Origin: Acidobacteriaceae bacterium
Lineage (GTDB): Bacteria > Acidobacteriota > Terriglobia > Terriglobales > Acidobacteriaceae
DNA: 64,000 nt
Reading direction: 5' to 3'
NCBI GenBank assembly: GCA_903642265.1
Contig: CAHJWN010000014.1
Coordinates: 1-64,000 of the forward strand
A program made the position numbers and the translations under genes. Below are positions 3,880 through 46,096 of the stretch, piece after piece (the first letter of the stretch is position 1; the number at the start of each line of letters is the position of its first letter). The notes under the pieces were generated by a model that did no database searches, had not been told where the DNA came from, and was given only the letters and a program-made list of their open reading frames with translations.

Positions 3880-4563
3880 TCAGAACCGGTAAACGAGGCT
3901 CGCAACCGGTTCGTCAGTAACCCTCCAGCTACGCGTGCTCAGTAAAGACTGATTGAAGTTCGGTGACCGATAGATAAGCGACCGTCCCTCGACTCGGATT
4001 GCGATGTGCTTGTTTGGTGTAGGCAGATCAAGACCGACTTCCACCAGCCCGGTCGCACGCCACTGGCTCGATGCCTGCGAAGGGATGAAACTGATCGCGC
4101 CACCACCAACATTTACGAATGGCTGTAAGACGATGTGCTTCGGGTGAAATACATATGCCGCGGTCGCCTCATTCGCCGTCACCGGAATGGATAGGCTCTG
4201 TCCAGCCGCACTGGAGTAGTTGAAGTTATAGATCTCCTTCGACCGGAAATACCCATAGTTCACTTCAACCCCGGCGTAAGACACGGGATGCAATTGCATC
4301 GATAGCAACAAGCCACCAGAATACGGCGTGAACTGCTGCTGCCCACTTACCGTCTCGTTAAGTACCCCACCAGTAGGAGTGTTGATGGTCGCTGTCACCG
4401 CACTCGAACCATCCGTGAGTGGGGTCGTAAACTGCCCCGCATAACCAGCGGAGATGCTACCGCCCTTCAAGCTATAAAGCTGTTTATAGAATTGGCCGTG
4501 AGCTGCTGTCGCAAGCGTCGCGAAGACAAGCGGAAGGATGGTACGTCGCATCGTTTGAAGCAT
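3880..4563 (-). CDS. Outer-membrane beta-barrel protein
   Basis: A 227-residue protein with a signal peptide (RRTILPLVFATLATAAHG-Q) and alternating aromatic/polar strands. It ends in VASLVYRF, the terminal phenylalanine typical of barrels inserted by BamA. It resembles the barrel at 29287-29886 in layout (YSLKGGSISAGYAG opening, NYGYF strand, HIVLQPFVNVGGGA strand). It belongs to the small porin-like or OmpA-barrel class; its substrate is unknown. GGAG stands 8 bases before the ATG at 4563; an internal ATG three codons on is also possible. It lies downstream of, and in the same direction as, the two ferritin-like genes. Confidence 0.75.
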   Translation of the reverse strand: MLQTMRRTILPLVFATLATAAHGQFYKQLYSLKGGSISAGYAGQFTTPLTDGSSAVTATINTPTGGVLNETVSGQQQFTPYSGGLLLSMQLHPVSYAGVEVNYGYFRSKEIYNFNYSSAAGQSLSIPVTANEATAAYVFHPKHIVLQPFVNVGGGAISFIPSQASSQWRATGLVEVGLDLPTPNKHIAIRVEGRSLIYRSPNFNQSLLSTRSWRVTDEPVASLVYRF

Positions 4564-40886: not shown

Positions 40887-43333
<2,447 letters not shown>

Positions 43334-43361
43334 CTATTGTTTCGTAAGATGCTGCGTACAT

Positions 43362-43391
43362 AAAAATGCCCGCTCTCCAAAAGGAGCGGGC
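43362..43391 (-). terminator. Intrinsic terminator in the metY leader
   Basis: Stem GCCCGCTC / GAGCGGGC with an 8-base loop followed by ATTTTTA on the minus strand, 47 bases before the metY start. It either ends the upstream TonB-like transcript or attenuates metY. Confidence 0.85.
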
Positions 43392-43563
43392 GGTCTGGAA
43401 AGTTGTCTCTTGTACGACTATCGCAATCGACCCATCCCACACCGCCCCGCCAAGCCACTACACGGGGGTGGACACGTCATCGCCAACGCAATCGGGAGGG
43501 TACTGCAATTCATCCCGCAAGTATGCTCCAGCCAGCAGCTTGATTGCAACCGGCTCGGAGCAA
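43392..43563 (-). promoter_or_regulatory. Candidate cis-regulatory leader of metY
   Basis: The 170-base stretch between the tonB-like stop and the terminator contains GGGCGGT (complement of 43441-43447). It can pair with ACCGCCC (complement of 43388-43394), which includes the 5' arm of the terminator. The pairing would open the terminator. The segment also carries CGATTGCG twice. None of the known S-box, SAM-II or SAH consensus cores is recognised. Function is inference. Confidence 0.35.
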
Positions 43564-44187
43564 TCAGCCGCGTTCATAGTGGAAATGCAGCTCCTGCTCG
43601 CTCGACACCGGGGTACCGTTCCTTGTAGCAGGGCTGTACGTCCACGTACGAACCTCCGCAATCACTTCATCATCGATGGGATGTCCCAAACCTTTCAGCA
43701 GCGTCAGGTCTGCGATTTTGCCGTGTACATCGATTACCGCATTTAGAACCACATCGCCCTGTGTTCCAGGTGGCAGAGTCGACAGGTCCGGCTTGGGGTG
43801 CGGAAAGTAAGTCAGCTGCGCCATGTTTATTTCGCCATCGCCCAATCCGCTTTGTGCCGTGTTGCCCGCGCCTCGCTCTACATTCCGGGCGACCACCTTC
43901 TCCGGTGCGGTCTTCGCTTGTACAGCGGGTGCCTTCGTCTCTAGCTTCGGGCTGTCCGTAACCTTCGACGCGAGTTCACTCGCTGCATGCTCTGGACTAC
44001 CCGCTGCATAGTAGGTCAGCAGCCGAACGCCATCTTTCGCTCCTGGTAATTTGTAGGCCGCAATCTTCGGAGCGCGCTGGAACGCTCCCAGCGCGACCAG
44101 CAAAAAAATGCAATGTACAGCAACCGAACTTGCACCTTGCCGCAGACGGAATCGCTCTGTCCCCACAATCGCATTCGTCAGATTCAT
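43564..44187 (-). CDS. TonB-family energy-transducer-like protein
   Basis: A 207-residue inner-membrane protein. One N-terminal membrane helix (ASSVAVHCIFLLVALGAF) precedes a disordered, lysine/alanine-rich periplasmic linker. The TonB C-terminal fold includes GDVVLNAVIDVHGKIADLTLLKG, then DEVIAEVRTWTYSPATRNG. The linker is not the classical proline-rich (PKP) type. No ExbB/ExbD genes are near. It may couple a TonB-dependent receptor, or act in an unrelated envelope role. Confidence 0.78.
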   Translation of the reverse strand: MNLTNAIVGTERFRLRQGASSVAVHCIFLLVALGAFQRAPKIAAYKLPGAKDGVRLLTYYAAGSPEHAASELASKVTDSPKLETKAPAVQAKTAPEKVVARNVERGAGNTAQSGLGDGEINMAQLTYFPHPKPDLSTLPPGTQGDVVLNAVIDVHGKIADLTLLKGLGHPIDDEVIAEVRTWTYSPATRNGTPVSSEQELHFHYERG

Positions 44188-44266
44188 CAGGGCTTTGCTC
44201 CCGGTCGCTTTCCTGTAAGACTCATCACAAGCCCCAGCGCTTCCTCAACATGCATTTAGATCTCTT

Positions 44267-46096
44267 CTAACCTGCTTTTTCTGTCAGTTCCGCCCACCGT
44301 GCGTACAGCGCATCGGCCGACTCCTGCGCCTTCTCCATCTCGGCGAGGGCTGCCGTCAACCTTATCGAGTCGACCGCAACGTCATTGTCGTCGAGCAACT
44401 CGCGTGCGGCCTGTAACCTGTCCTCCGCCGCATCTACCGCAGCCTCGATACCGGCGTACTCGCGAGCCTCCAGATACGACAGCTTCTTCTTTCCGCCTGC
44501 TGCAGTCGGCTCAGGAGCGCTCAACGCTGCCACTGCTGTTCCTGCAGCGCCTGGCGCAATCGAAGCCGCGATGACCTCTTCACCCTTGATCCCAGCCCCT
44601 TGTTCCCATTGCGAGTAGTCGGCAAATCGCTGCGCGCCGCCGCGACCATCCAGTCCGAGCACCGTAGTTGAGACACGATCGAGCATGTAGCGATCGTGCG
44701 TCACCAAGACCAATGCGCCGGTGTATTCCAGCAGGCTTTCCTCAAGAATCTCGAGTGTGGCAATATCCAGATCGTTCGTCGGCTCATCGAGCAGCAGCAG
44801 ATCCGCTGGCTCCAGCATCAGCTTTGCAATCAGTACACGTGCCCGCTCGCCACCAGAAAGACGCTCTACCGGTTGATTCAGCTGCTCGCTCGTAAACAGG
44901 AACTTGGTCGCGTAACTAGCCACATGAACTACGCGGCCCTGGTAGACGACCGAATCCGAGTCAGGAGCAAGCGCCCGACGTAAGGTCAAACTTTCGTCAA
45001 GCTCCCTCGTCTGGGAGAAATAAACAATCTTGAGCGAAGCCGCAAGCTTCAACGTCCCCGCCAAAGGCTGTAACTCGCCCGTAAGCAGACGTAGCAGCGT
45101 TGTCTTTCCGCTTCCGTTCGGCCCAACAAGGCCAACGCGCATTCCTGATGTGATAAGGAAGTTCAGGTCCTCAACAATCTTCCGATCACCCAGCACGACG
45201 CTGACACCTTCCATCTCCACCAGCCGCTTGGTCTGCCGCTCGGTGGCTGAAAAGTCGATTCCCGCGCTCGCAGTCTGCGTCCGAGAGTTGACCTCCTTCA
45301 ACTGTCCAATTAACTCCTGTGCGCTGTCGATACGCGCCTTCGACTTGGTTGTTCGCGCCTTTGGCCCGCGTCGCAGCCAGTCGGTCTCGATCTTTACGCG
45401 GTTCTTGAGCGCATCCTGCAGCTTCGTCTGCGCCTCCAAATACTGCTCTTTACCTTCAAGAAACTTGCTGTAACTTCCCTTCACCCGTAGCAGGCCGTCC
45501 GCATAGACGCGGTTCAGTTCCACCATCTCCTCGGCCGTATTTTCCAGGAAATATCGATCATGCGAGACCATCACGACAGCCGAGTCGGTCTCTTTCACGA
45601 TCTGCTCCAGCCACGCAATACCCGCCAGATCAAGATGGTTTGTAGGCTCATCGAGCAGAAGCACATCAGGCTTGGTAACGATTGCTTCAGCGATCGCAAG
45701 TCGCTTCCTCCAACCTCCTGAGAGCCTCGCCGCCTCGGCTTCAAGCGATGGAAATCCGGTACGGCCGGACGTCTCACGCAGTCGCCCCTCACGTTCAGCT
45801 TCGGGAATGCCAGCATTCGCCAAAGCCTTCTCAAGCACGTCGCGTACCGTCAACTTCGGCGCAAAGACAGACTCCTGCTGCACGTAGCCAACCCGCGCCC
45901 GCTTACGAATCGCTACATCGCCGGCATCAGCGTCTTCATCTCCTGCAAGGACCCTCAGCAGGGTGCTCTTACCGGCACCATTCGGGCCGATGAGGCCAAT
46001 GTGGTCGCCGTCCGAAACTGTAAACGAGATGTCATGGAACAGTGCGTTTGCACCAAAGGCTTTGGTCAGCCCCTGCGCATTTAGGATTGGTGGCAT
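44267..46096 (-). CDS. ABC-F family ATPase, Uup-like
   Basis: A 609-residue cytoplasmic protein with two ABC cassettes and no membrane domain. Cassette 1 has GPNGAGKST, LSGGWRKR and LLLLDEPTNHLD; cassette 2 has GPNGSGKTT, LSGGERAR and LLLLDEPTNDLD. The inter-cassette P-site linker is charged (RRGPKARTTKSKARID). The C-terminal coiled-coil DNA-binding-like domain (YAGIEAAVDAAEDRLQAAREL) is characteristic of Uup. ABC-F proteins act on stalled ribosomes, and Uup also affects precise transposon excision. Start MPPILNAQGLTKAFG is standard. Confidence 0.92.
   Translation of the reverse strand: MPPILNAQGLTKAFGANALFHDISFTVSDGDHIGLIGPNGAGKSTLLRVLAGDEDADAGDVAIRKRARVGYVQQESVFAPKLTVRDVLEKALANAGIPEAEREGRLRETSGRTGFPSLEAEAARLSGGWRKRLAIAEAIVTKPDVLLLDEPTNHLDLAGIAWLEQIVKETDSAVVMVSHDRYFLENTAEEMVELNRVYADGLLRVKGSYSKFLEGKEQYLEAQTKLQDALKNRVKIETDWLRRGPKARTTKSKARIDSAQELIGQLKEVNSRTQTASAGIDFSATERQTKRLVEMEGVSVVLGDRKIVEDLNFLITSGMRVGLVGPNGSGKTTLLRLLTGELQPLAGTLKLAASLKIVYFSQTRELDESLTLRRALAPDSDSVVYQGRVVHVASYATKFLFTSEQLNQPVERLSGGERARVLIAKLMLEPADLLLLDEPTNDLDIATLEILEESLLEYTGALVLVTHDRYMLDRVSTTVLGLDGRGGAQRFADYSQWEQGAGIKGEEVIAASIAPGAAGTAVAALSAPEPTAAGGKKKLSYLEAREYAGIEAAVDAAEDRLQAARELLDDNDVAVDSIRLTAALAEMEKAQESADALYARWAELTEKAG

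Follow-up and report, generated by a model that had tools for sequence, protein, structure and literature searches.

The metY gene of a soil acidobacterium, which encodes a homocysteine-making enzyme, is very likely preceded by a ribosome-mediated transcription attenuator whose leader peptide is marked by Cys and Met codons and probably has a leaderless start. The leader adjoins metY on its upstream side in a 64,000-nucleotide stretch of DNA (the window), and metX is probably carried on the same transcript (Table 1).

Table 1. Features of the metY leader and its neighbours in the window.
Feature	Coordinates	Strand	Remarks
metX, homoserine O-acetyltransferase	40887..41984	-	overlaps metY end; PRK00175, 362 bits, cut-off 331
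metY, O-acetylhomoserine aminocarboxypropyltransferase / homocysteine synthase	41981..43315	-	TIGR01326, 671 bits, cut-off 495
Shine-Dalgarno-like GGGAGGAG of metY	43321..43328	-	
U-rich tail ATTTTTA	43361..43367	-	after the terminator
Terminator hairpin GCCCGCTC-N8-GAGCGGGC	43368..43391	-	
Antiterminator outer 3' arm ACCGCCC	43388..43394	-	overlaps terminator 5' arm
Apical stem TGCGA-TAG-TCGTA	43413..43425	-	predicted fold; stop codon of leader ORF in loop
Leader ORF, MNCSTLPIALAMTCPPPCSGLAGRCGMGRLR*	43418..43513	-	31 codons, between promoter-like site and terminator
Antiterminator outer 5' arm GGGCGGT	43441..43447	-	codons 23-25 of leader ORF
-10-like box CATACT	43520..43525	-	18 nt past -35-like box, 6 nt ahead of ATG
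-35-like box TTGCAA	43544..43549	-	TTGACA in many relatives
tonB-like gene	43564..44187		upstream of leader; Pfam TonB_C

A first-pass annotation of this DNA had called a terminator before metY on the minus strand and a GGGCGGT/ACCGCCC complementarity overlapping its first arm; both are present, and the two heptamers lie 46 nt apart. Since the antiterminator and the terminator share 43391..43388, the structures are mutually exclusive, as that annotation had proposed by analogy with attenuators. The duplication of CGATTGCG that it had reported is likewise there, with both copies (43494..43487 and 43429..43422) inside the leader ORF; a role for the repeat was sought and none was found. The ORF itself (43513..43418, minus strand) had been overlooked. 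Its peptide has Cys at codons 3, 14, 18 and 25 and internal Met at codons 12 and 27, a leaning to Cys (four of the 31 codons, against two for internal Met), with no two Cys codons adjacent and no Trp codons.

The boxes ahead of the ORF are weak, matching 8 of 12 consensus letters for -35 and -10 together, below the cut-off of the promoter scan. The same layout is found in L003 and L004. A -10-like hexamer lies 5-8 nt ahead of the ATG in 26 of 31 leaders inspected and, by a simple rule, 20 of the 31 have such a box together with a -35-like TTGA/TTGC at 15-19 nt. Because the ATG of the window follows its -10-like box by only 6 nt, the leader ORF is probably leaderless, and we infer that transcription starts at or next to the ATG.

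Within the window, folding and motif searches gave modest signals. Of 200 shuffled versions of the leader, 195 fold less stably than the leader itself (z -2.47), and the antiterminator-terminator stretch has a folding z of -2.14. Terminator-like sites in 43200..44300 number 1, against a shuffle mean of 1.0. When both strands of the window were scanned for a Cys/Met-rich short ORF followed by a terminator, one match was obtained; 20 first-order Markov copies of the window gave a mean of 0.55 matches in the same scan, with at least one in 8 of the 20, and the window-only scan is thus non-significant alone. The leader stands above chance because it is conserved in relatives.

A protein search recovered a close MetY in 58 of 200 genomes of the family, 55 of them with at least 330 nt upstream (in L294, L326 and L339 the upstream DNA is too short). 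A strict rule, which required two or more Cys, a sum of Cys and Met of at least 4, and a strong terminator, found a leader at 40/55 metY genes and at 0/55 on the opposite strand; the match at L319 was an overlapping ORF in another frame, and the looser rule gives the aligned one. Because in most of the 15 misses a leader was present but its hairpin was imperfect or it had only one Cys, we loosened the rule post hoc to at least 1 Cys and an RNA-folded terminator, which gave 51/55 against 3/55 on the opposite strand. Four metY genes (L316, L317, L318 and L320) have no leader even by the looser rule. Closer to the window, its genus provides nine genomes (its own included) with a metY of at least 75% identity, seven of which have an ATG-started leader; the leader of L009 begins at GTG (MTASCTIRATMSPCIWTPAWVRGINPKS*), and L010 (G011) has none at metY. 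Among the Acidobacteria loci of the named collection (at least 70% identity), a leader was seen in 25 of 26 by script or by eye; the remaining one, L052, lies at a contig edge, as does L117. The genus, family and named-collection sets share some records. L117 and L052 were kept out of the counts, as were L033 and L034, which duplicate the records of L006 and L007, respectively, and L116, which resembles L045, the metY leader of Terracidiphilus gabretensis. A covariance model, R1, matched 32 of the 200 family genomes at E <=0.1; at 30 loci among the matches listed, 27 matches lie before metY and 2 before other genes (L130 and L139), and R1 misses the window's own divergent leader. The R1 match at L136 lies in coding DNA and looks like chance.

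Leaders were also sighted farther afield. Upstream of metY in L061 (Gemmatimonadales) is a short Cys-rich ORF with a terminator. A metY-like gene in L072, an Anaerolineales metagenome-assembled genome, is surrounded by three short Cys-rich ORFs that all have a terminator behind them (2304-2396 and 4369-4467 on the plus strand, and one on the minus strand), a hint of comparable leaders in Chloroflexota. At L074:1261-1306, upstream of the metY leader, there is an Acido-Lenti-1 RNA (RF01687, 39.1 bits, cut-off 37).

The encoded peptides share composition more than sequence. The closest relatives of the window, L003 and L004 (MetY 88% identical), also have 31-codon leaders, MIFRAAYAISKNMPMRACCVCVSGCGNSRMQ and MTSSIAFFGPKNMRMCMCCGPVGERRNGRMR, and these three peptides have little in common except Cys, Met and a similar end; ends resembling MAMCMCMACGPVRAALERRMR* recur in many leaders. 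Counted over 52 metY leaders, 222 ATG triplets after the start are in frame, against 2 and 6 in the other two frames. The corresponding counts for Cys codons, 159 in frame and 191 and 56 in the other frames, are not a valid comparison because ATGTGY itself contains a TGT in the next frame. The peptides of 51 metY leaders average 2.8 Cys and, leaving out the start, 4.3 Met; at least three Met on the same count occur in 48 of them and at least two Cys in 44. The L327 leader is nearly Met-only (MKQTVQLMSMSMRMQMCIRGRLTLGLRLA*); leaders of almost pure Met with one Cys each were seen upstream of metY in L327, L328, L329 and L337. From stop codon to terminator, the distance is 18-37 nt, with a median of 24 (52 metY leaders). 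L125 was kept out of the set of 52 because the script saw no terminator there; the looser rule found its leader (L283).

To examine the pairing, 29 leaders were folded over the stretch between codon 19 and the terminator loop. Most gave a long predicted hairpin of three stems: the outer one uses the terminator 5' arm, a middle one follows, and the apical one holds the stop codon within or close to its loop (TGCGC-TAA-GCGCA, or in the window TGCGA-TAG-TCGTA). Outer-arm sequences vary by lineage and yet match, as in GGACCC/GGGTCC (L040), GTGGGC/GCCCAC (L004), GACCGTG/CACGGTC (L126) and the window's GGGCGGT/ACCGCCC. In the predicted folds of many relatives a small hairpin masks the outer arm of the antiterminator. 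The fold energy in the window is -33.7 kcal/mol for the antiterminator and -16.3 kcal/mol for the terminator (stretch 43405..43368); because the former is more stable, an untranslated transcript might read through, and basal read-through may be high.

Among the 14 most similar leaders, antiterminator covariation was not above shuffles (81.8% of cells paired versus 82.4 shuffled; 2 pairs altered on both sides versus 3.0), and terminator covariation was not either. For this reason, diverse leaders were compared in a cross-pairing test, in which the antiterminator zone of each leader was paired with its own or with permuted terminator arms. With 51 leaders, own arms gave -19.18 kcal/mol versus -16.38 for permuted arms (sd 0.40), a difference reached in 0/20,000 permutations. 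The result held for 31 representatives of less than 70% identity, which remove shared ancestry only in part (-18.15 versus -15.84, sd 0.51; 0/20,000), and an earlier run with 29 leaders agreed. A control zone, codons 2-13, showed no preference (-11.84 versus -12.20; 18,308/20,000 permutations as good or better). The own arm ranked in the best quarter in only 29/51 leaders and 16/31 representatives. The test omits L009, L048, L061 and L074, and L060 was dropped as a near-copy. Covariation across relatives, which the first-pass annotation had named as a check, is thus found between lineages and is absent within the 14 close leaders; the covariation evidence is a between-lineage comparison.

The leader combines a short ORF rich in codons of the pathway, a terminator between that ORF and the gene, and an excluding antiterminator placed for stalling, and these parts suggest how it may work. 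The promoter at about 43549..43520 on the minus strand would start the transcript at the ORF. When charged tRNA-Cys is short (and charged tRNA-Met, judging from the relatives), a translating ribosome would stall upstream of the antiterminator region or within its initial portion. A ribosome held at a Cys or Met codon ahead of the outer arm would leave the antiterminator free, so that the downstream half could form the long hairpin, capture the terminator 5' arm and let RNA polymerase continue into metY-metX. With plentiful charged tRNAs, the ribosome would translate as far as the apical loop, where the stop codon lies; the antiterminator would then open and the terminator form, and transcription would end before metY. 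On an assumed ribosome footprint that extends some 12 nt past the A site, the outer arms lie outside the footprint of a ribosome at the stop, so disruption would have to come from the inner stems. The net effect would be that the enzyme is made when Cys or Met runs short.

Similar leaders precede other sulfur genes. In the same genus, a Cys-rich leader followed by a terminator was found before a nitrite/sulfite reductase-family gene at 20 of 23 loci, this genome included, and at 0/23 on the opposite strand. For the reductase-family protein, no NCBIfam match reaches its cut-off. The leader in this genome (L229, G000:C4, about 1276-1365) starts at GTG, encodes MDIQAISRCRGCMQCCCCDARCCFCSAS* with 9 Cys in 28 codons, and is followed by a terminator; a further one, MAGFMACRCAACRMCCCDRVRRCLCLNRRPAN* in L215, was seen by eye and stands outside the script's 20. 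The 20 reductase leaders average 0.9 Met and 6.15 Cys, the latter an upper figure because the rule takes the Cys-richest start and allows GTG and TTG. Reductase and metY leaders thus differ in Met and Cys content, which supports the codons as the signal. Among f2-family loci the reductase-leader rule matches 2 of 7 (L238 and L239), and L237 appeared in another scan only.

The remaining leaders, to which the R1 model and the pattern search described below led, are single or few cases. One precedes a nitrite/sulfite reductase-family gene (PF01077) in L194, and a RimK-like ATP-grasp gene follows a leader in L139, L152 and L192 (Pfam-tested for L192, assigned by likeness in the others). In L139 the ATP-grasp gene is followed by a luciferase-like monooxygenase (PF00296), a 149-aa fragment whose best NCBIfam match, SfnG, is below its cut-off. 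The leader of L204 stands before cobA and then a cysD-like gene (a fragment, below cut-off); a convincing leader was sought at the cobA relatives L242-L271 and none was found. In L151 the downstream gene encodes a small protein lacking an assigned family. At L130:1301-1610 (G210), a tRNA-Cys gene (gca, 1408-1483) lies between two short Met/Cys ORFs with terminators.

Two further observations concern these loci. L151:1655-1924 and L130:1697-2026 encode small proteins without a Pfam match directly after Met/Cys leaders, and the two proteins have a C-G-x-C-M-R-G-V stretch in common. L130 also has a third Cys-rich ORF, which lies on the minus strand and precedes a gene for an outer-membrane barrel protein that carries a carboxypeptidase-regulatory-like domain.

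The pattern ATGTGYATGTGY was searched in 120 genomes. At 70 loci inspected among the matches listed, the script reported an attenuator in 12 and none in 58, and 4 of the 12 were metY again (L143, L144, L149 and L156). L170 and L199, two matches with an attenuator, look like chance.

On balance we favor an Acidobacteriota sulfur-amino-acid regulon built from leaderless leader peptides and intrinsic terminators and including Met-codon attenuation. Under this reading, Met-and-Cys peptides would serve metY and Cys-only peptides the nitrite/sulfite reductase-family gene, and the regulon would also cover cobA-cysD, a sulfone/sulfonate-type monooxygenase cluster and tRNA-Cys.

A leader peptide could also act by other means, with the nascent Cys/Met peptide sensing redox state or metal, or acting in trans, instead of reporting charged tRNA. 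Stretches rich in Met and Cys, MAMCMCM for example, could be metal-binding, and one related leader (L201) precedes a peroxiredoxin gene. Such a mode is nevertheless quite improbable: apart from Met and Cys the leader peptides vary strongly, metY and reductase leaders have different Met:Cys ratios, and antiterminator and terminator are arranged as in tRNA-sensing attenuators.

The first-pass annotation had favored an undescribed riboswitch, and a metabolite-binding element for SAM, SAH or methionine that controls the terminator would account for a pair of mutually exclusive structures upstream of a methionine gene. SAM-I (S-box, RF00162) controls terminators of methionine-related genes in many bacteria and is present in this lineage, above cut-off in 44 of 61 genomes. 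In this genome, however, the one copy found (L280:3033-3136, G000:C24:23032-23135, minus strand) precedes the threonine synthase gene thrC, not metY. Rfam 15 gave no family at gathering score in the 64-kb window, and no regulatory family exceeded its cut-off in 16 related loci. The annotation's failure to recognize a SAM or SAH core was borne out, since the covariance-model search of 43250..43650 found no SAM or SAH class, including SAM-I, at E <=10. Only Trp_leader (RF00513; 17.6 bits, E 0.52, cut-off 41; the peptide has no Trp) and AAC_AAD_leader (12.6 bits against a cut-off of 56) matched, and both were rejected. What recurs is a Met/Cys-biased ORF, with paired arms that vary by lineage, unlike an aptamer core. 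Moreover, the antiterminator spans the second half of the ORF with the stop in the apical loop, which is the anatomy of ribosome-mediated attenuation and not of a riboswitch. We therefore regard a riboswitch as very improbable. A separate cobalamin-riboswitch search of this genome found one copy, on another contig.

It is just as improbable that the hairpin merely terminates the upstream tonB-like transcript, the fallback of the first-pass annotation, with a metY promoter further down: the hairpin does lie downstream of that gene and would stop its transcript too, yet metY retains its leader and terminator next to other neighbors (in L003 an ABC-F gene ends 72 nt ahead of the leader ATG and tblastn finds no tonB-like gene, and L051 has a tRNA gene upstream, whereas L004 keeps the tonB-like gene), the promoter-like site immediately followed by an ORF start is found again and again upstream of the terminator, and a consensus scan found nothing promoter-like from the terminator to metY, though this is weak evidence as the scan also misses the proposed leader promoter.

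The attenuator that we propose for metY has both known counterparts and features of its own. Leader-peptide attenuators are classically known from the trp, his, leu, ilv, thr and phe operons. Like them, the metY leader has a short ORF rich in the regulatory codons, an antiterminator and terminator that share an arm, and a biosynthetic gene downstream; unlike them, it has Cys and Met codons, probably a leaderless start, and a host in the phylum Acidobacteriota. Cysteine-responsive leaderless short ORFs of mycobacteria were reportedly treated by Canestrari in 2020. In the portion of PMC1262725 available to us, cysteine leader peptides are described as runs of Cys before cys operons of Mycobacterium and others, with no conserved terminators, and methionine elements were not found. 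The accessible text of PMC13236596 assigns the mycobacterial Cys-responsive leaderless short ORFs to translation attenuation, and such ORFs also figure in the corresponding parts of PMC9031893, PMC9094748 and PMC4633059. As far as these texts go, the metY leader resembles the mycobacterial ORFs in placing Cys codons in a short ORF before a sulfur gene, and it may share their leaderless start. The mycobacterial ORFs, by the same texts, have a contiguous Cys run near the stop and no conserved terminator, whereas the metY leader has scattered Cys codons (3, 14, 18 and 25) together with Met, and an intrinsic terminator and antiterminator that are found in relatives too. Another parallel is uORFC-8-2 before cysS in Rhodobacterales, which the available extract of PMC8632094 describes as having Cys at codons 14 and 15 and a terminator with a U-run. 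Both are short Cys-codon ORFs with a U-run terminator for which ribosome-mediated attenuation has been proposed. By that description, they are set apart by gene (cysS versus metY), by Cys positions (tandem 14/15 versus 3, 14, 18 and 25 in the window), by the alphaproteobacterial host of uORFC-8-2 and by the Met codons of the metY leader family. Our search of the open-access PMC literature turned up no sulfur-gene leader peptide described for Acidobacteriota and no described methionine-codon attenuator; in the consulted part of PMC2965389, almost all predicted attenuators of Acidobacteriota lacked an assigned function.

If the proposal is correct, a recurrent attenuator of Acidobacteriota would acquire a function. 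Methionine genes are usually regulated by riboswitches, T-boxes or repressors, and leader-peptide control would be extended to methionine codons. Should the tRNA-Cys gene be controlled in the same way, as a single locus (L130) suggests, the sensor would adjust its own signal. The use of Cys-only versus Met-plus-Cys codons is predicted to place sulfur reduction and homocysteine synthesis under separate control.
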